Part shown: piece after piece, positions 78 to 8,891 of the stretch
Position numbering within the stretch: position 1 is the first letter of the stretch
Layout: every line of letters starts with the position of its first letter
Source: Kineococcus rhizosphaerae
GTDB lineage: Bacteria; Actinomycetota; Actinomycetes; Actinomycetales; Kineococcaceae
DNA: 64,000 nucleotides
NCBI RefSeq assembly: GCF_003002055.1
Contig: NZ_PVZF01000008.1
Span: 1-64,000 of the forward strand
Direction of reading: 5' to 3'
The notes under the pieces: generated by a model
Databases searched by the model: none
Told to the model about the DNA's origin: nothing
Seen by the model: the letters and a program-made list of their open reading frames with translations, nothing else
Translations under genes and position numbers: made by a program

Positions 78-1832
78 TCAGCCGTAGATCACTAGGTCGC
101 GCACGAGGTCGGCGGTGGCGGCGTCCTCGACGCCCTCGGCGACGACCTCCATGGACAGCCGGTGGGCCAGGTCCGCCAGGGCCCGCACGATGGCGGCGTC
201 GACGGGGGCCTGCGGGGCGGCGACGACGAAGGAGCGGTCGATCTTCAGCTCGTCCACCTGCAGCCGGCGCAGCATCGTCAGCGACGTGTAGCCGGTGCCG
301 AAGTCGTCCAGCGAGACGCGCGCGCCGGCGGCGCGCAGGGCCGTGAGCACGGCGCCCACGCCGTCGGGGTCGCCCAGCAGCGCCGTCTCGGTGACCTCCA
401 GCGTCAGGACCCCGCGCTCCAGGCCGTTCTCGGCGATGGCCCGGCGCACGGCGTTGACCAGCGAGGGTTCGCCCAGCACGACGGGGGAGACGTTGACCGA
501 GACCGTGACGTCGTGGCCGGCGGCGCGCCAGGCGGCGCACTGGGCCGCGGCGGTGCCCAGCACCCAGTGCGTCAGGCCCACGATGGCGTGGCTGCGCTCG
601 GCCAGCGGGACGAACGCGCCCGGCTCCAGCAGTCCGTGCTCGGGGTGCTGCCAGCGCACCAGCGCCTCCACCCCCACGGTCCGGCCGCTGCCGGCGGCCA
701 CCAGGCGCTGGTAGTGCACGCGCAGCTGGCCCTCGGCGACGGCGGCGGGCAGTTCGGTGTGCAGCCGCAGGGCCGCCACGTCGACGGCGGCCTCGCCCTG
801 GGCCACGGCCAGCCGGTGCTGCTCGTCGGCGGCGCGCACGGCCGCGACGTCGGCCAGCGCGAGCAGCTCGTCGACCTCCCGGCCGTGCTGGGGGGCGCAG
901 GCGACGCCGATCGAGACGTCGGGGCGCACCCGCAGCCCCCGGCCGGGGCCGTCGGCGAGCAGGACGACGTGCTCGCGCAGCACCTGGTGCAGGACGCGGC
1001 CCTCGTCCAGGCCGGTACGCAGGGGGTCGTGGGAGCCGTCCAGCTCGACGGGGCGCACGACGGCCAGGGAGTCCAGGTCCAGCCGGGCGACGAGGGCGCC
1101 GGGCAGCTCGGCGGCGCGGCGCGCGGACTCGGCGAGGACCTCCTCGGCCGCGGCCGGGCCCAGGGCCAGCCGCAGGTCGCGCAGGTCGTCGAAGTGGACG
1201 ACGCTGACCGTCAGCTCGTCGCCCGGGCCCTCGCCGGCCGCCAGCCGGCGGGCGGCGGTCTCCAGCAGCCCGGTGCGGTTGAGCAGCTCGGAGCTGACGT
1301 CGTGGCGGGCCCGGCGGTCGGCCAGCCGCAGCAGCGAGCGCACCCCCACGACGGGCAGGACGGTGGTGGCGGGCAGCGCGAGCACCCAGCCCAGGACCTG
1401 GCCGGGGTGGCCGGAGGCGACGAGCGCGACGGGCAGCAGCACGAACGGCAGGGCGGTGGCGACCACGACGTCGCGCCGTGAGCTCAGGAACGGGACGTGC
1501 ACGGCGCTCGCGGAGTACAGCACGACGAGCACCCCCACGGCGGGGGAGCCGTCGGCGCAGTAGACGCCCACGGTGGTCGTCAGGGCGGCCGAGACGATCG
1601 CGGCGCCGGGCGCGGGCAGCGGCCAGGACTCGGTCAGCATGAGTCCGGCGCCGCTGACGAAGCCCAGGGTGGAGATCGCCAGGATCAGCACCCCGTGCTG
1701 CCCGCTCCAGCCGGGCACCAGGACCACGGAGGCGAAGATGAGGCTGGTGACCAGGTACTCCAGGGCCACCACCCGCCGGCTGAGGCCGGCGTCGCCGAGG
1801 TCGACGGTCTGTTCGCGCTGCGCGTTCACCAC
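78..1832 (-). CDS. Membrane GGDEF-EAL protein, degenerate, EAL end missing
   Basis: Predicted c-di-GMP signalling protein, 584 residues. About six hydrophobic segments fill residues 25-170, a GGDEF-like region follows (about 185-340), and an EAL domain starts near 350. The GGDEF signature is replaced (RLDLDSLAVV lies there), so cyclase activity is unlikely. The EAL domain keeps EALVRW, NVSP, EVTET, DDFGTG, ELKID and AEGVED. It stops directly after LVRDLVIYG and lacks the final QGY...RP segment, which the remaining 77 bases do not encode in any frame. The GTG start was chosen because a GCCGAT promoter element ends 9 nt upstream, which suggests a leaderless mRNA. The gene follows the terminator of the surface-protein operon and has its own promoter. 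Confidence 0.85.
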   Translation of the reverse strand: MVNAQREQTVDLGDAGLSRRVVALEYLVTSLIFASVVLVPGWSGQHGVLILAISTLGFVSGAGLMLTESWPLPAPGAAIVSAALTTTVGVYCADGSPAVGVLVVLYSASAVHVPFLSSRRDVVVATALPFVLLPVALVASGHPGQVLGWVLALPATTVLPVVGVRSLLRLADRRARHDVSSELLNRTGLLETAARRLAAGEGPGDELTVSVVHFDDLRDLRLALGPAAAEEVLAESARRAAELPGALVARLDLDSLAVVRPVELDGSHDPLRTGLDEGRVLHQVLREHVVLLADGPGRGLRVRPDVSIGVACAPQHGREVDELLALADVAAVRAADEQHRLAVAQGEAAVDVAALRLHTELPAAVAEGQLRVHYQRLVAAGSGRTVGVEALVRWQHPEHGLLEPGAFVPLAERSHAIVGLTHWVLGTAAAQCAAWRAAGHDVTVSVNVSPVVLGEPSLVNAVRRAIAENGLERGVLTLEVTETALLGDPDGVGAVLTALRAAGARVSLDDFGTGYTSLTMLRRLQVDELKIDRSFVVAAPQAPVDAAIVRALADLAHRLSMEVVAEGVEDAATADLVRDLVIYG

Positions 1833-1926: not shown

Positions 1927-3039
1927 TCAGAGCGGCTGCAGCGCAGAGGCTCCGTCGCGGGCCAGGACCGCGATGCGCTGCGAGGCCAGACCGTCGCCGT
2001 AGGGGCTGGGGGTGTCCGCCAGCCGGGCCAGGGCCTGCGGCGACGTCATCCGGCGGGCGTGCTCGACGAGGTCCTCCGGCTCGCTGAGCACCGAGAACCC
2101 GGCCGCCACCGACTCCGGGCGCTCGGTGCTGGTCCGCACGACCACGAGCGGCTTCTTCAGCACGGTGACCTCCTCCTGCAGCCCGCCGGAGTCGGACACC
2201 AGCAGCGACGCCGAGCGGGTCAGGGCCAGGAAGGTGCGGTAGTCCACCGGCGGCAGCACCCGCACGGAGTCCGGCACCGGCACGCGCCACGCGCCGAGCG
2301 CCTTGCGGGTGCGCGGGTGCAGGGGCAGCGCCACCGGCGCACCCAGCGCGCCCAGGCCGCCGACCAGCGTCCGCAGCCGCTGCGGGTCGTCGGTGTTCTC
2401 CGGGCGGTGCACCGTGGCGACCACGCCGCCGGGGGCCACCCCGAGGCCGGCCAGCAGCGCGGCGGTCTCCTCCTGCGACGGGCACAGGGCCGTGACGGCC
2501 TCCACGACGGGGTTGCCGGTGACGAACACCGACCCCGCCGGGACCGCCCCGTCGAGGAGGTTGCGCGCGTTCTCCGGGGTCGCGGCGCAGTGCACGTCGG
2601 CCAGCGCGGAGATCAGCAGCCGGTTCGTCTCCTCCGGCATCGCCCGGTCGTGGCTGCGCAGCCCCGCCTCGACGTGGACGACCGGGATCCCCAGGTAGTG
2701 CCCCGCCTGCGCGCCGGCGTTGGCGGTGTTGGTGTCGCCCTGCACGACGACCGCGCGCGGGCGCTGCCGGGTGAAGCGGTCGGCGAGCCGGTCGACCATC
2801 GTGGCGACCTGCTGGGCACGGGTGCCGCCACCGACGCCGTCGACGGCGGGCGCCAGCGGGTCCAGCCCGCAGGAGCGGAACACCGCCTCGGTCAGCTCCT
2901 GGTCGTAGTGCTGGCCCGTGAAGACCCCCGCGCCGTCGGCGCCGAGGGCGTGCAGGACGGGGGCCTGCTTGATGATCTCCGGACGGGTGCCGAAGACGAC
3001 GGCGACCGTGCCGGTGAGGTCGGTGCTCTCGTCAGCCAC
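1927..3039 (-). CDS. wecB: UDP-N-acetylglucosamine 2-epimerase (non-hydrolysing)
   Basis: Interconverts UDP-GlcNAc and UDP-ManNAc in the cytoplasm, supplying ManNAc-type sugars for surface glycans. The 370 residues match the usual family length. Signature stretches are GTRPEIIK at the N-terminus, HVEAGLRSHD, MPEETNR, TVHRPEN and SDSGGLQEE. The start overlaps the end of the secreted-protein gene by 8 nt, so it is the last gene of the surface cassette. Its position beside a glycosyltransferase and an exosortase suggests that the glycan it feeds decorates or anchors the secreted protein; that link is inference. Confidence 0.93.
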   Translation of the reverse strand: MADESTDLTGTVAVVFGTRPEIIKQAPVLHALGADGAGVFTGQHYDQELTEAVFRSCGLDPLAPAVDGVGGGTRAQQVATMVDRLADRFTRQRPRAVVVQGDTNTANAGAQAGHYLGIPVVHVEAGLRSHDRAMPEETNRLLISALADVHCAATPENARNLLDGAVPAGSVFVTGNPVVEAVTALCPSQEETAALLAGLGVAPGGVVATVHRPENTDDPQRLRTLVGGLGALGAPVALPLHPRTRKALGAWRVPVPDSVRVLPPVDYRTFLALTRSASLLVSDSGGLQEEVTVLKKPLVVVRTSTERPESVAAGFSVLSEPEDLVEHARRMTSPQALARLADTPSPYGDGLASQRIAVLARDGASALQPL

Positions 3040-3946
3040 GGAGGGTGCTCCTCGAGGTCAGGGCGTCCAGGACGGGACGGCGCAGGCGCAGGCCCACCGC
3101 CACGAGGGCGGCCGCGCTCAGCGGCAGGGCGGGGCCGGGCAGGGCGCTGGCCGGGACGGTCTGGGCGTTGGCGCCGCAGCGGACGGTGCCGATGTTCACC
3201 GCGGCCACCGCGCCGCTGAGCAGGGTGACCGTCAGGGCGGTGGTCTGGACGCTGCCGGTGCCGGCGGGGGTGCTGGTGGCGCGCAGGGCGAGCTGGGCCA
3301 CGCCGGGGACGGTCACTCCCGAGTTCACGCCCGGCGCAGCGGCCAGGGTGATCGTCGGGACCCCGGCGACGAGCACCGCGGCGTTGGCCAGCGTGACCTT
3401 GCCCGTGGCGGTGCCGTCGGACGTCGCCGTGCAGGAGGCCAGGATCGCGTCGGCCTTGATCACGGTGGCGGGCACGGCGGGCACGAGGACGGCGCCGAAC
3501 GGACCGGTCACGGCGGGAGTCCCCGCGACCAGGGTGATCTGCACCCCGCCGGTCCCACCGCCGGTGACCGTGCACGCGCCGGCCGTGCCGACGGTGATGG
3601 TCCCCCCGGCGCCGACGAGCCCGCCGCAGGCGTCCGAGGACCCGTCGGCGCGGGCGACGGCGGTCTGCACGAGCGTGCCGGCGGTGATGCCGCCCTGACC
3701 GCCGAGCACGGACAGCGCCGGCGTCTGGGCGGTCGTCTGGGTGGTCTGCGAGCCGGAGTTCGACGCGCCCGCCCACCCCGTGGTCACCAGCGGGCTGCCC
3801 AGGGCCCCGACGGTCACGGCGTTCGCGCTCGCCGTCGAGGTGTCGGCCGCGGCCGACCCGGCCGTGGCCAGCACGATCGCGGCGGCCCCGGCGACCCCGG
3901 CGGTGAGCAGCCGCGCCCGGGTGCGGCGGGGGGTGGTCTCGTCCAT
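3032..3946 (-). CDS. Secreted surface protein with exosortase-type C-terminal tail
   Basis: Export is shown by an N-terminal signal peptide (basic RRTRAR, then a hydrophobic stretch ending near AAADT, about residue 35). The 304-residue protein is rich in Ala, Gly, Thr and Val, with paired cysteines near CGG, ACTV, SCTA and RCGA. The middle and end (ADAILASCTA ... TVRCG) resemble the actinobacterial choice-of-anchor P type of surface domain. Near residue 269 come LPGPALP, a hydrophobic stretch and RLRR: the motif-membrane-basic order of a PEP-CTERM-like sorting signal, followed here by 14 more residues. A ribosome site (GAGG) precedes the ATG. It lies 9 nt after the glycosyltransferase and is the obvious candidate substrate of the exosortase encoded two genes upstream. 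Confidence 0.75.
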   Translation of the reverse strand: MDETTPRRTRARLLTAGVAGAAAIVLATAGSAAADTSTASANAVTVGALGSPLVTTGWAGASNSGSQTTQTTAQTPALSVLGGQGGITAGTLVQTAVARADGSSDACGGLVGAGGTITVGTAGACTVTGGGTGGVQITLVAGTPAVTGPFGAVLVPAVPATVIKADAILASCTATSDGTATGKVTLANAAVLVAGVPTITLAAAPGVNSGVTVPGVAQLALRATSTPAGTGSVQTTALTVTLLSGAVAAVNIGTVRCGANAQTVPASALPGPALPLSAAALVAVGLRLRRPVLDALTSRSTLRG

Positions 3947-3955
3947 GTCGGCTCC

Positions 3956-5350
3956 TCAGCTGCTCGGGACGGGGGTGAGGGTTTCCACGACGGGCCGGTC
4001 GTTGGCCCGGGCGGTCTTGTGCCACTCGGTGTGGCCCTTCAGGACGCGGAACAGCGCGCGCCAGGCGCAGATCTGCAGCAGGTAGCCGTAGCCGATGTTC
4101 GCCACGGCCATCCACAGCGCGCCGCGACGGGTGACGAACGTGCCGCAGTGCGTGCGGTAGAAGAAACCCCACAGCGCGTGGGGCAGGACGCCGAACAGCA
4201 GGCCCAGCGGGATCAGGCCCCACGCCCCGGCCAGCAGCCACCGGTCCGCGCCCTGCGGGTCGTGCAGGGCGTACCAGAGCATGACGATCGTGGTGAGCGG
4301 GAACACGACGCTGCCGAACACCTGCGAGAACGGCACCCACATGTAGTGCGCGATCTCCAGCGCACCCGGGATCGAGATGCGCTCGGAGTTCAGGACGCCC
4401 CACAGGTACCGCAGGCACTGGATGTTCCCCTGGGACCAGCGGGTCCGTTGCCGCAGCAGGGGTTTCACCTTGCTCAGCCCGTCCTGGGCGACGAACGTGT
4501 CGTGGCAGTACTCGGTGCGGTGCCCCGCCAGCAGCACGTGCAGGCCGAGTTCGAAGTCCTCCAGCAGCGCCCCGTGCCAGGGGGTGCCGTGCTCGCGCGC
4601 GACGTCGTCGAGGGCGGTGAGCCGGGTGAACTGCCCGTTGCCGCCCATGGCGACGCTGCCGGTGCGCCGGCGCAGGAACTGCATCGCGGCGATGGGCCCG
4701 GCGAACTCCAGGTCCTGCAGGCGGACGAGGATGTGGTCGCCCTTCGTGCGGGCCCGGGAACCGACGAGCCGGTCCAGGTCGGTGCCGACGAGCGCGTCGA
4801 CGTCCTCGGTGATGCGGACCTGCACCTGCACGGCGCCGACGGTCGGGTCGCCGAACATGCCGGGACCGGAGATGACGTCGGGGCAGAACTGCTCCAGGCG
4901 CCCGTCGGCGTCGACGACGCCGACGACGACCCGGGAGCGGTCGGCGCCCTCGGGCAGTTCGGCGCAGATCCGCCGGTAGGCGTCGTTGAGGGCGTCGCCC
5001 TTGCCCTTGCGGGCCTCCGGCGGGCGGCGGCTGACGACGCGGACCTTCTCGTGCCGGGTCGCCAGCCAGGTGATCAGCTCGTGGGTGTGGTCGCGGGAGT
5101 CGTCGTCGATGCACCACACGGTCGCCTCGGGGAACGTGTCCAGCAGGTGCTGGACGGTGCCGACGATGACCGTCTCCTCGTTCAGGCAGGGGATGAGGAT
5201 GTGCCAGTCGAAGTCGGCGCGGTCACCGAGCCCCACCTCGCGGTGGCGCAGGAACGGGCGCAGGACGGTGACGACGTAGCTGAGGAACAGCACGCACAGC
5301 ACGAAGGCGGCGGTGTTCAGCAGCGCCAGGCCGAGGTGGACGCTATCCAC
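3956..5350 (-). CDS. Membrane glycosyltransferase, family 2
   Basis: Processive-type GT2 enzyme, 464 residues, expected to transfer a sugar from a nucleotide donor at the inner face of the membrane. One N-terminal membrane segment (about 8-30) leads into the GT-A domain, with DDDSRD, the DADG metal site, the LLEDFELG acid/base region and the QRTRWSQG motif. Two or three membrane segments follow (about 330-425). The ATG overlaps the exosortase stop by 8 nt, so the two are translationally coupled. The donor and acceptor cannot be told from the sequence. WecB in the same operon suggests a HexNAc-type glycan. Confidence 0.88.
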   Translation of the reverse strand: MDSVHLGLALLNTAAFVLCVLFLSYVVTVLRPFLRHREVGLGDRADFDWHILIPCLNEETVIVGTVQHLLDTFPEATVWCIDDDSRDHTHELITWLATRHEKVRVVSRRPPEARKGKGDALNDAYRRICAELPEGADRSRVVVGVVDADGRLEQFCPDVISGPGMFGDPTVGAVQVQVRITEDVDALVGTDLDRLVGSRARTKGDHILVRLQDLEFAGPIAAMQFLRRRTGSVAMGGNGQFTRLTALDDVAREHGTPWHGALLEDFELGLHVLLAGHRTEYCHDTFVAQDGLSKVKPLLRQRTRWSQGNIQCLRYLWGVLNSERISIPGALEIAHYMWVPFSQVFGSVVFPLTTIVMLWYALHDPQGADRWLLAGAWGLIPLGLLFGVLPHALWGFFYRTHCGTFVTRRGALWMAVANIGYGYLLQICAWRALFRVLKGHTEWHKTARANDRPVVETLTPVPSS

Positions 5351-5909
5351 GGCGCACCACCCGCGCGCCGCGCGTCAGCAGGACGACGAAGGTCAGCCCG
5401 CCGGCGACGATGCCCACGGTGCTGACGATCGAACCGGCCAGGACGTGGGTCACGCCGTACCCGTGCTCCAGGCCCCACAGGTGCATCCCGGTCGCGATGG
5501 TCAGCAGCCGCAGCTGGTTGACGCCCGCCACCACGACGGCGGCGAACCCCAGGGCACCGAGGGTGACGACGGCCGGCATCCGGCGCACCGGCAGCAGCAG
5601 GGTGGCCACGACGACGAACGGCACGATCAGCACGACGGCGCTGCAGCCGATCGTCACCGTCTGCCCCACCAGGCGGCCGTCGATGCGGAACAGGACGTTG
5701 TCGACCGTGCAGGAGGCGTCCGGGCCCCAGGTGCTGCGGACCAGGAACGCCGACGCGCACGCCTCGGCGTGCCGGACGGCGCGGTCGTGGGCCAGCAGCA
5801 CGACGGTGGCCGCCAGCAGAGCCGCGGTGAGGGCGCAGCGCACGGGCCCGACCTGGCGCAGCACCCCGGCGAACCGCGCGGCGCGCGGCGCCGGGACGGC
5901 GGCGCTCAC
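5343..5909 (-). CDS. Exosortase/archaeosortase-family protein
   Basis: A small polytopic membrane protein of 188 residues. The family's three catalytic residues can be placed: Cys89 in TIGCSAVV, Arg134 in NQLR and His155 in YGVTH. Both the C-then-NxxR-then-H order and the roughly 21-residue Arg-His spacing fit EpsH-type exosortases. These enzymes are thought to cut and transfer C-terminally tagged surface proteins outside the membrane. About five hydrophobic segments are present. The GTG start overlaps the stop of the upstream GAF gene (GTGA), and the end overlaps the glycosyltransferase. A likely substrate is encoded at 3032. The subfamily cannot be assigned by eye. Confidence 0.82.
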   Translation of the reverse strand: MSAAVPAPRAARFAGVLRQVGPVRCALTAALLAATVVLLAHDRAVRHAEACASAFLVRSTWGPDASCTVDNVLFRIDGRLVGQTVTIGCSAVVLIVPFVVVATLLLPVRRMPAVVTLGALGFAAVVVAGVNQLRLLTIATGMHLWGLEHGYGVTHVLAGSIVSTVGIVAGGLTFVVLLTRGARVVRRG

Positions 5910-6898
5910 GCGCCGACCCCGTCGCGGCGGGCCCGGTACAGGCGCTGCTCGGCCAGGGTCCACACCTGGCTGAGGTCGTGGGCCTCGCCGGAGGTGGCCC
6001 AGGCGCCGGTGGCCTCGAACCCCGCGGCGCGCAGGGTCGCCGTGACCTCGCGCACGGTCGCCTCGACCTCGTCGGGTTCGGCGTCGGTCACGATCGCGCC
6101 GAACTGGCGGGCGGTGAGGCGGGAGACGGTGGCCTCGGGCAGCGCCCGCACGACGACCTCGGTGGCCTTCTGCAGCCGGGTGGAGGAACGGACGCGGCCG
6201 ACGTCGACGACGAGCAGGGCGACCGGCAGGCCGCGCTCGGCGGTGCGCCGGTCCTCCTGCTGCAGCAGCGCGCCCCACCCGACCCGGCTGGACAGCGCGG
6301 TGACCTTGTCGGCGGCGTCGCGACGCACCGAGAGCCGGTCGGCCTCGCGCTGGGCGTCGTCGGCGGCGACCTCGGCGGCCAGGGCCTGGGTGAGCAGCCC
6401 GGCGAAGGCCTCCAGGAGCGCCTGCAGACCGGGGACCACGACCACGTCGGGGCGCGAGCTCCACCCGGCGAGGGTCCCCAGCAGGCGGCCGTCGTCGTCG
6501 CGCAGCGCGGTGCCGGCGTAGGCGGTCATCCGCAGCGCGGTCGCCGCGGGCGCCCGCACGTAGTTCGGCACGAGGGTGATGTCGGGGGCCACCGCGGGTC
6601 CCAGCCCGTTGACCACGCGCCGGCAGACCGTGTCCGACCAGGGGGTGCGCCGGCCCACGAGCACGCCGGTGGCCTCGTCGGAGACCGCGAGCGGCAGCAC
6701 GGCGGCGCCGTCCAGGCGTCCCACGTACCAGGTCTCCAGGCCGCTGGTGACAGCGAGGGCGTCCACGACCTGGCGGGCGCTGCGGCGCAGCGACGTCCCC
6801 GCCGCCCCCTGCGCGAGGGACGGGCGGGCGACGGTGCGCAGCACCGCCGTCTGCGGGGAGGGGACGGCGCTGCGGGCCGCCAGCTGAACCAGACTCAC
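5906..6898 (-). CDS. GAF domain plus inactive GGDEF-like domain
   Basis: Cytoplasmic sensor-type protein, 330 residues. Residues about 30-175 look like a GAF domain, and about 205-330 follow the GGDEF fold (DKVTALSSRVGWGALL at its start, VALLVVDVGR in the metal-site strand). The GGDEF loop itself is ARQFG, so it should not make c-di-GMP and may instead bind a ligand or partner. It is the first gene of the surface-protein operon and is GTGA-coupled to the exosortase. The GTG start is set by a GCCGAT element 9 nt upstream. What it senses is unknown. Confidence 0.78.
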   Translation of the reverse strand: MSLVQLAARSAVPSPQTAVLRTVARPSLAQGAAGTSLRRSARQVVDALAVTSGLETWYVGRLDGAAVLPLAVSDEATGVLVGRRTPWSDTVCRRVVNGLGPAVAPDITLVPNYVRAPAATALRMTAYAGTALRDDDGRLLGTLAGWSSRPDVVVVPGLQALLEAFAGLLTQALAAEVAADDAQREADRLSVRRDAADKVTALSSRVGWGALLQQEDRRTAERGLPVALLVVDVGRVRSSTRLQKATEVVVRALPEATVSRLTARQFGAIVTDAEPDEVEATVREVTATLRAAGFEATGAWATSGEAHDLSQVWTLAEQRLYRARRDGVGA

Positions 6899-7019: not shown

Positions 7020-8891
7020 GTGACCAGCACTCCCGTCCCGGCCGCCGGACGCGGCTTCCGCCGCCGGGCCGCCGTCGTCGTCCTGCCGCTCGTCGTCCTG
7101 CTCGCCGGGGCCGGCACCAGCGTCGCCATCGCCGTCGAGACCCGCTCCGGCGGGCTCGAGCGCGCCGACCGCCTCGCTCAGGCGGTCGCCGACGAGGAGG
7201 CCGGGGCCCTCGGGGACGCCGTGCGGGACTACTCCAGCGCGCTCGACGCGCTCGGGGCGGGGATCGCGAACCAGCCCGCCATCGACGACGCGCAGTTCCA
7301 GGCCTTGTCCGCGATGGCCGACACCCTGCCCGGTCTGTCGAGCCTGAGCTACACCGTGCCCGTCGACGACACCGCGCAGGCCGTGGCCGCCGCCCAGGAG
7401 CGGCTGCGCGCGCAGTTCGGCACCCCGGTCACCCTCAAACCGGCGCAGACCGAGCTCGGCGAGCACCGCTTCATCGCCGCCTACCACGGTGTCGGCACCC
7501 GCGAGACCCTGCGCGGTGCCGACGCGGCCGCCCTGCCGACGGTCGTCGCCGCCGCGACCGCCGCCCGGTCCTCGGGCAAGCTGGCGGTCAGCGCCCCCTA
7601 CGTCCTGCTCGCCGACCGGGGGCTGCCCGTCGCCGAGCAGCAGCAGTCGGTCGTGTTCACCGCCCCCGTCGTCGGCGGCCGTGACCAGGCCGACGCGGGG
7701 GAGTTCCGCGGCTGGGTCTCCGGCGCCTTCCGCGCCGGCACCGTCCTGGAGGCCAGCACGGACCGGGACACCTCCCGCAGCGCCCACGTGCAGCTCTGGG
7801 ACGCCACCGATCCCGCCCAGCCGGTGCTGTTGGGGTCCCTCGACCCCGAGGGGACCGACTCCGACCGTCCCGCCCGTACCGCCAGCGTCATCGCCGGCAA
7901 CCGCCGCTGGACGCTGTCCGTCGTGCCGACCGCGCAGGCCGTGACCGACGAGGTCGGCGACGGCCCGCTCGTCGCCCTCGTCGTCGGCGGTGGGCTGTCC
8001 CTGCTGCTGGCCGCCCTGCTGTTCTCCGTCACCGCCGGCCGCGAGCGCGCCCAGCGCAAGGTCGAGCAGGCCACCGCCGACCTGGCCCAGGAGGTCGCCC
8101 TGCGCAGCCGCAGCGAGGAGGCGCTGCGCACCCGCGAGTCCGAGCTGGGCGCCTACACCACGGTCGTGGCCGACCGGCTGCGGCTGCCGCTGTCCCGGTT
8201 GTCCGCCCTGTCCGACGCCGCGCGCGAGACCGGGGCCTGGACGGCGGCGGACTGGCACGAGCGCCTCGACGGCGTCGACCGCCGCCTCGACCGCGCGCGC
8301 CGCCTCGTGGACGACCTGCTGCTGTACGCGCAGGTCAGCGAGATGGCCCTGACCGAGCGGGCCGTGGACCTGTTCGCCACCGGCACCCTCGTCGCCGACG
8401 AGCAGGAGGCGCTGAGCGCCCACCTGCCCGTCGAGCTGCAGCCCAGGATCGAGGTCGGTCCGCTCCCGGAGGTCGTCGGGGAGCCGTGGCTGCTGCACCA
8501 GGTGCTCGCGCGCCTGGTGGACAACGCGGTCGTGCACGCCCCCCCGGGGCAGCCGGCCGTCGTCTCCCTGGGGGCGGAGCTGACCGGTTCCCGCTTCCGC
8601 GGGGAGGTGTGGCGCATCGAGGTCCGCGACCGCGGCCTGGGGGTGCCCGCCGACCGCCGCGCCACCGTCTTCGAGCCCTTCGCGGGCGAGCCCGCCGACG
8701 TCGAGCTGGGGGGCAACCACCTGAGCCTGGCCCTGTGCCGGCGCATCGTCATGCGCCTGGGCGGCGACGTCGGCCTCGAGGACGACCCCCGCGGCGGCAG
8801 CGTCTTCTGGTTCACCCTGCCCGTGCGCAGCACGACGGGGCTGGGCGCCGCCGCCATCACCTCGGCGCCCCTGGTGCCCGTCCTCGGCTGA
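7020..8891 (+). CDS. Histidine-kinase-like sensor lacking the phospho-accepting His
   Basis: Membrane sensor of 623 residues. A membrane segment (about 18-38), an extracellular CHASE-like sensing region to about 315, a second membrane segment (about 316-340), a coiled coil, a DHp-like helix and a HATPase domain follow in order. In the DHp helix, where families have xHDLRxPL, this protein reads VADRLRLPL, so the acceptor histidine is missing. The HATPase part keeps an N box (LARLVDNAVVHA), RDRGLGVP and VFEPFAG, but its last glycine loop reads GNHLSLAL. It is probably a pseudokinase or scaffold. No response regulator lies beside it. It diverges from the surface-protein operon. Confidence 0.8.
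   Translation: MTSTPVPAAGRGFRRRAAVVVLPLVVLLAGAGTSVAIAVETRSGGLERADRLAQAVADEEAGALGDAVRDYSSALDALGAGIANQPAIDDAQFQALSAMADTLPGLSSLSYTVPVDDTAQAVAAAQERLRAQFGTPVTLKPAQTELGEHRFIAAYHGVGTRETLRGADAAALPTVVAAATAARSSGKLAVSAPYVLLADRGLPVAEQQQSVVFTAPVVGGRDQADAGEFRGWVSGAFRAGTVLEASTDRDTSRSAHVQLWDATDPAQPVLLGSLDPEGTDSDRPARTASVIAGNRRWTLSVVPTAQAVTDEVGDGPLVALVVGGGLSLLLAALLFSVTAGRERAQRKVEQATADLAQEVALRSRSEEALRTRESELGAYTTVVADRLRLPLSRLSALSDAARETGAWTAADWHERLDGVDRRLDRARRLVDDLLLYAQVSEMALTERAVDLFATGTLVADEQEALSAHLPVELQPRIEVGPLPEVVGEPWLLHQVLARLVDNAVVHAPPGQPAVVSLGAELTGSRFRGEVWRIEVRDRGLGVPADRRATVFEPFAGEPADVELGGNHLSLALCRRIVMRLGGDVGLEDDPRGGSVFWFTLPVRSTTGLGAAAITSAPLVPVLG

Follow-up and report, generated by a model that had tools for sequence, protein, structure and literature searches.

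A five-gene exosortase cassette headed by a GAF and degenerate GGDEF-like protein in Kineococcus rhizosphaerae

We analysed the first 64,000 nucleotides (nt) of contig NZ_PVZF01000008.1 of Kineococcus rhizosphaerae (the window; 75% G+C, at the start of its contig), in which five contiguous minus-strand genes encode a GAF and degenerate GGDEF-like protein (the lead protein), an exosortase, a family 2 glycosyltransferase (GT2), a secreted cargo protein and a WecB-type epimerase. Because the exosortase, GT2 and cargo lie near existing NCBIfam models of the XrtP/R/S type, the core of exosortase, GT2, cargo and WecB is, by its sequence relations, a relative of a kind already modelled by NCBI. By the same comparison, the new element of the locus is the pseudo-GGDEF lead gene, which defines a new variant. 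As a whole, with a chance that we put just short of even, the locus may be a single-cargo exosortase cassette, related to the actinobacterial XrtP/R/S systems and gated by a non-catalytic GAF pseudo-GGDEF sensor. The features of the cassette are as follows (aa, amino acids).

5906..6898, minus strand: lead gene, GAF plus degenerate GGDEF-like protein, 330 aa (orthologue alignment and Pfam)
6329..6796, minus strand: GAF domain, about residues 35-190, limits approximate (Pfam in orthologues; homologous region in GAF-GGDEF cyclases)
5915..6301, minus strand: predicted GGDEF-fold domain, catalytically degenerate, about residues 200-328 (predicted model against GGDEF structures)
6098..6112, minus strand: ARQFG, residues 263-267, at the position of the GGDEF motif (alignment with homologous cyclases)
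5343..5909, minus strand: exosortase/archaeosortase-family protein, 188 aa (TIGR04178 above cut-off)
5643..5645, minus strand: Cys89, putative nucleophile (invariant in aligned relatives)
5508..5510, minus strand: Arg134 (invariant in aligned relatives)
5445..5447, minus strand: His155 (invariant in aligned relatives)
3956..5350, minus strand: GT2 glycosyltransferase with QxxRW motif, 464 aa (NF053846, Pfam GT2)
3032..3946, minus strand: secreted cargo protein, 304 aa (choice_anch_P under cut-off; four invariant Cys)
3035..3154, minus strand: candidate sorting tail, residues 265-304, with PxxAxP, hydrophobic helix and Arg (invariant tail residues)
1927..3039, minus strand: WecB-type non-hydrolysing UDP-N-acetylglucosamine (UDP-GlcNAc) 2-epimerase, 370 aa (TIGR00236)

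The five open reading frames lie at 6898-5906, 5909-5343, 5350-3956, 3946-3032 and 3039-1927, and the intergenic spacings down the set are -4, -8, +9 and -8 nt, which is consistent with translational coupling. An earlier reading of this DNA by a model that saw the sequence alone (the sequence-only reading) had described a tightly coupled operon, and the frames, order and coordinates were as it gave them, with overlaps of 4-8 nt and one 9-nt gap.

The exosortase scored 26.5 bits against TIGR04178, above the cut-off of 23, and this model was matched by all 11 aligned exosortases at an E-value (E) of 0.001. Cys89, Arg134 and His155 were invariant in 11/11 aligned relatives and present in all 14 cassette exosortases. 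For EpsH, catalysis has been proposed to depend on absolutely conserved Cys, Arg and His residues (PMC1569441; this paper and the two cited below are drawn on in part). The proposed exosortase-like enzyme with a Cys89-Arg134-His155 triad is thus borne out by the TIGR04178 match and the triad in 14/14; the profile search of 5343-5909 that the sequence-only reading had suggested returned exosortase models, and the absence of any match that it named as counting against its proposal did not occur. A sequence search for a solved relative of the exosortase gave none beyond a chance-level ribosomal protein (E 0.67). The enzyme would cleave or transpeptidate the tailed cargo.

The cargo has a signal peptide, recognised by eye, and its C-terminus consists of a Pro-rich motif, a hydrophobic stretch and Arg residues, which agrees with the secreted protein with an LPGPALP-hydrophobic-RLRR tail described earlier. 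Four Cys residues were invariant in 11/11 aligned cargos, as were P265, A268, P270 and R289 of the tail, with R289 only nearly so in a tail-only alignment. In the suggested choice-of-anchor check on 3032-3946, the cargo scored 24.4 bits against the choice-of-anchor P model (NF040603), just under the cut-off of 27. At E 0.01, choice_anch_P was recognised in 2/11 cassette cargos. A tail-profile search of the window's own genome, suggested by the same reading, found only the two cassette cargo genes and no third significant tail (next match E 0.125) among the 150 of 677 candidates scored. Among 58 genomes searched, strong cargo matches occurred in 5/5 exosortase-positive genomes and in 0/53 others, with two weak 17-bit matches in exosortase-less genomes (G010 and G024); strong cargo homologues without an exosortase, which would have spoken against the earlier proposal, were therefore not seen. 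The predicted cargo model had a mean predicted local distance difference test score (pLDDT) of 61.7 and gave no match in the PDB at E 0.001, and a sequence search for a solved relative found none at an E limit of 1. As a separate observation, three tandem open frames with similar C-terminal tails lie beside a sister exosortase (L125 10594-13098; L numbers denote loci), possibly a multi-cargo case.

The GT2 scored 510.1 bits against NF053846, the model of the XrtP-associated glycosyltransferase, just under its cut-off of 520, and also matched Pfam GT2. The WecB protein scored 254.3 bits against TIGR00236, above the cut-off of 210.15, so both enzyme assignments of the sequence-only reading hold. 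EDFEL and QxxRW were found in 14/14 cassette GT2s, and the WecB motifs were kept in 13/13 cassette WecBs; we take these motifs to be catalytic. No solved relative of the GT2 was found by sequence at an E limit of 0.001. A WecB is not specific to the cassette, being present in 34/58 genomes, and scores above 370 bits occurred only in the five exosortase-positive genomes. At sister locus L128 (2102-4897, minus strand), a single open frame of 931 codons carries GT2 and WecB domains and adjoins the exosortase; this supports a putative link from WecB to GT2, as a lone case that may be an error.

Other observations on the GT2 concern loci outside the clade described below. The GT2 of one core locus is broken into two frames (L161 6394-7898, minus strand). 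GT2 relatives also occur in nine exosortase-less stretches (L051-L055, L130-L133), in which a scan gave neither an exosortase nor a lead-gene match. A histidine-kinase-like match lies nearby in 8/9 of these, and several also have a short response-regulator-like gene, noted by eye.

We then considered the lead protein. The window protein alone reached 13.8 bits for GGDEF, under the cut-off of 23.8, and its GAF domain was unrecognised; over 11 orthologues at E 0.1, Pfam recognised GGDEF in 10 and GAF in 8. Arg followed by Gln or His replaces Asp-Glu in 14/14 cassette lead proteins, and the loop after the first strand is gone too. The motif region was aligned for 21 non-cassette relatives from other genera (taken from loci returned by the lead-protein search rather than from all its matches); of these, 17 read GGDEF, one GGDAF and three were otherwise degenerate. 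Within the genus, 13 distinct non-cassette places (duplicates counted once; one weak place, also GGDEF, set aside) comprised eight GGDEF and five altered motifs (GPDRF, APDRF, AGDRF and GSDQF twice), none with the cassette-type Arg-Gln/His. In the predicted model, of moderate overall pLDDT (64.5), residues 200-328 aligned to GGDEF structures with Z about 16 and a root-mean-square deviation of about 2 over some 125-130 residues, so the GGDEF fold is probably kept. The degenerate GAF-GGDEF head protein proposed earlier is upheld, with ARQFG where homologous cyclases have GGDEF and the GAF domain visible only via orthologues.

The strong form of the lead protein (>380 bits with its profile) was found in exactly the 4/11 genomes of the genus that have the exosortase, and the next-best genus match, at 200 bits, reads GGDEF. 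The lead proteins of loci L156-L158 score only about 197 bits with the same profile, so it is the motif and not the score that separates the two forms. An active cyclase was rejected, as the motif and the loop are missing in 14/14. An RxxD in the usual register ahead of the GGDEF position was present in 0/14 cassette lead proteins, the window protein included; the 14 residues before the motif held no RxxD in 10/14, and in L058 an RLVD lies farther upstream. Binding of cyclic di-GMP (c-di-GMP) by the window protein is therefore unlikely, and canonical binding by the lead protein is not supported. The second-messenger-like control proposed by the sequence-only reading is not supported in that form, given the lost catalytic motif and loop and the missing in-register RxxD (three proteins have one shifted by one residue); judged by these residues, a non-catalytic GAF sensor is likelier.

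The exosortase was searched in 59 related genomes, of which five were positive, and the GT2 in 297 genomes of the order; a search of one genome collection with named organisms yielded two Mangrovihabitans endophyticus loci. At ten loci besides the window, the lead gene is followed by exosortase, GT2 and cargo in this order, and at nine of the ten also by WecB. With later loci, the identical five-gene order was present in 13 of 14 clade loci (window included) from three families, the co-occurrence that the sequence-only reading had named as support. The spacing between lead gene and exosortase was -55 to +16 nt in 14/14, with start codons predicted. At least 13 of 250 genomes of the Mangrovihabitans family have the exosortase, and all 12 newly fetched loci of that family carry exosortase, GT2, cargo and WecB in that order. 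Twelve more distant exosortase loci (L045-L050, L123-L128) have the GT2 in 12/12 and WecB in nine, and in a sample of the class an exosortase of the cassette kind was found in at least 7/394 genomes at E 1e-8. These loci were picked up by the likeness of their GT2 or exosortase to that of the window and are thus a non-random sample; the profiles for the class, family, lead-protein and cargo searches were built from cassette members. The genome searches score part of the first candidates per genome (at most 43 for cargo, 8 for the class exosortase, 13 for the Mangrovihabitans-family exosortase and 5 for lead-protein relatives), which makes the tallies minimum values and limits the absences to the candidates scored.

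A GT2 tree was built from 35 rows, and in it a branch supported at 100/100 separates the 14 lead-gene loci from the rest. The lead-gene label required one change on this tree, and 0/500 shuffles were as low; long branches were flagged among the rows lacking the lead gene, and a single change of label is no proof of a single origin. L161 (split GT2) and the exosortase-less L051-L055 and L130-L133 were left out. The simplest reading of the tree is that the lead gene joined an older four-gene core once, at its head, and was lost from none of the 14 sampled loci. None of the stretches behind the 21 sister rows gave a lead-gene match; of these stretches, L056 had no exosortase match and L048, L126 and L127 span only 6-12 kb. 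On this result, the lead gene was rejected as a general marker of exosortase loci. Distances between loci correlate among the five proteins (Spearman 0.45-0.80), and we do not count this as proof because shared ancestry alone suffices.

From the gene set and order, the catalytic residues, the degeneration of the lead protein, the grouping of the lead-gene loci in a single clade and the co-occurrence of the cargo, all read from sequence, we infer the export, cleavage site, acceptor, product, lead-protein location and regulation as follows. WecB would make UDP-N-acetylmannosamine (UDP-ManNAc), and the membrane GT2 would build the WecB-derived sugar into a glycan or glycolipid. The cargo would be exported via its signal peptide and retained by its C-terminal helix. 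The exosortase would cut at or near PxxAxP through Cys89 and transfer the new C-terminus of the cargo to the acceptor provided by the GT2, so that the cargo would end up at the cell surface. The lead protein would be cytosolic, with a GAF and a dead GGDEF domain; it would not synthesise c-di-GMP, nor is it likely to bind this nucleotide at the usual site. On sensing a ligand or partner, the GAF domain may alter the contact of the pseudo-GGDEF domain with the GT2 or exosortase, and so gate the output. Of the dedicated sorting and glycosylation system claimed earlier, what stands is an exosortase cassette with one cargo, next to genes for sugar nucleotides and a glycosyltransferase; cargo glycosylation is putative. 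If the scheme is true, exosortase action in Gram-positive bacteria would be under direct allosteric control, and one operon would combine a sensor, sugar source, glycosyltransferase, sorting enzyme and dedicated cargo. With so few genes forming a closed set, the acceptor of the exosortase reaction would become directly testable. The lead protein would also be a second pair of GAF and dead GGDEF tied to a glycosyltransferase beside PelD, here mostly without the c-di-GMP site.

Comparison with known systems places the core close to the actinobacterial exosortases P, R and S (NF012139, NF012138 and NF033767), which together with NF053846 and NF040603 represent the same enzyme families as the cassette. 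The likeness to the XrtP-type system is seen in the GT2, just under the cut-off as given above, and in the cargos of the lead-gene-less relatives L161 (42.3 bits) and L165 (32.8 bits), which exceed the choice-of-anchor P cut-off. The cassette differs from XrtP/R/S in that its exosortase reaches a third to half of their cut-offs, its cargo is mostly unrecognised and a pseudo-GGDEF lead gene is added. The PEP-CTERM/EpsH system with PrsK/PrsR resembles the cassette in its Cys, Arg and His residues, its tail of motif, helix and basic residues, its place near polysaccharide genes and a histidine kinase among its regulators, as near the cassette; as far as the part of that paper drawn on goes, its cargos lie mostly in scattered single-gene operons, whereas the cassette has one in-operon cargo and no PEP motif (PMC1569441). 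Archaeosortase A shares the proposed Cys-linked intermediate and transfer to lipid, but is archaeal, has diverse substrates with a PGF motif and, in the part of that paper drawn on, is not described as coupled to a GT2 and WecB (PMC7157517). The model in which it joins the cut C-terminus to a lipid is described as speculative by its authors (PMC7157517), and we count it in favour of surface attachment of the cargo by the exosortase. A pairing of an exosortase with a GAF/GGDEF-type regulator was not found in titles and abstract openings of open-licence literature. The earlier claim that the combination is undescribed therefore survives for this pairing, and not for the components, since P/R/S, the XrtP-associated glycosyltransferase and choice-of-anchor P are already modelled in NCBIfam.

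Several results weigh against a gated single-cargo exosortase cassette. The exosortase scored 18.3 bits against Pfam PF09721, under the cut-off of 25.7, and a PF09721 search of its own genome gave no match at E 0.001. It also fell under the subfamily cut-offs of XrtP (67.2 of 200 bits), XrtR (58.0 of 150) and XrtS (74.4 of 145). At the fourteenth clade locus, L057, the stretch read contains no wecB. The lead gene heads 3/12 of the new core loci and is absent from 9/12, and it was found in 0/12 of the distant exosortase loci in the stretches read, indicating that the core does not need it. The GAF domain, recognised in just 8/11 orthologues, is poorly modelled, and the PxxAxP motif is short, with loose conservation around the residues that are fixed. 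In L156-L158 an RxxD (RNND or RHHD) is shifted by one residue from the usual register, so these three proteins may bind c-di-GMP. Physical contact of the lead protein with the GT2 or exosortase is putative, and the case is built on sequence and predicted models.

Other explanations of the same genes were weighed. The exosortase might merely release the cargo while GT2 and WecB make a separate surface polymer, the genes being co-regulated and not one pathway. The GT2 relatives in exosortase-less stretches, mostly near kinase-like genes, fit this, and exosortases were first tied to exopolysaccharide loci without proof of attachment in the part of PMC1569441 drawn on; against it, the four-gene core keeps its order at loci far apart, and exosortase and GT2 occur together in 12/12 more distant loci, and we consider it unlikely. 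The passenger explanation, in which the lead gene is merely linked and has no role in the cassette, agrees with its absence from related core loci but is very improbable, given its retention in 14/14 loci of a deep clade, its overlapping or near-overlapping frames, 30 invariant columns and an identity of 26-42% to the window protein in the six non-genus loci compared.

The two remaining explanations keep the lead protein within c-di-GMP signalling, and we regard both as improbable. The lead protein could be a PelD-like receptor whose degenerate GGDEF domain binds c-di-GMP and turns on the neighbouring glycosyltransferase. PelD, a GAF plus degenerate GGDEF protein encoded with polysaccharide genes in Pel loci, controls a polysaccharide synthase post-translationally (PMC7112168), a likeness that would be one of architecture. 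The PelD structure appeared at Foldseek rank 28, below active cyclases, and in none of the 50 rows of a VIA-align comparison, which were filled by GGDEF domains and barely tested the GAF half. The shifted RNND or RHHD of L156-L158 and the EAL protein downstream of the operon in the window and three genus loci also suit a PelD-like receptor. However, PelD binds c-di-GMP through RxxD (PMC7112168), which is out of register or missing in the lead proteins as described above, the EAL neighbour was matched in the genus only, and the adjoining exosortase and sorted cargo set the locus apart from PelD as far as that source goes. To a comparable degree, we doubt that the lead protein pairs with an intact GAF-GGDEF cyclase, damping or directing it and tying the cassette to the c-di-GMP network of the cell. 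Its nearest relatives are mostly intact GAF-GGDEF cyclases, one of them (L113) in the same genome, and its GGDEF fold is kept in the predicted model, but the lead gene is tightly coupled to the exosortase in 14/14 loci, and no recurring cyclase gene was seen at the loci, whose neighbours are only partly annotated.

Two further genes flank the cassette in the window.

7020..8891, plus strand: divergent CHASE histidine-kinase-like protein without the phospho-acceptor His (Pfam, locus comparison)
78..1832, minus strand: degenerate GGDEF plus EAL protein without the C-terminus of its relatives (Pfam, locus comparison)

The divergent CHASE gene stands ahead of the lead gene in the window, three genus loci and both Mangrovihabitans loci (L038, L039, L040, L057 and L058 besides the window). 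The phospho-acceptor His of its protein is replaced by Asp, Ser or Thr in 6/6 loci, and the Asn and Gly (ATP-binding) boxes look intact at their expected positions. Two dead enzymes, a GAF pseudo-cyclase on an exosortase/glycosyltransferase complex and the CHASE kinase without His, might then switch the display of a single protein by binding and not by catalysis, an idea that we hold to be rather unlikely. Besides the window, only the three genus loci gave a match to the EAL gene after the operon. The window copy of this gene (78-1832) stops early compared with genus relatives, the region after LVRDL being lost; as the gene lies at the start of the contig, the loss could be genuine or could stem from the assembly. 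GAF-MCP chemoreceptor-like genes (MCP, methyl-accepting chemotaxis protein) lie near three cassettes (L037 13005-14561, L041 11398-12927 and L043 4876-6399), identified by Pfam for L037 and L041 and by similar sequence ends only for L043. The window's own genome also holds a second complete, diverged cassette (L037 7793-12992, one of the ten loci above), whose nearest neighbours on the GT2 tree are loci of family f8, with support 94/94.

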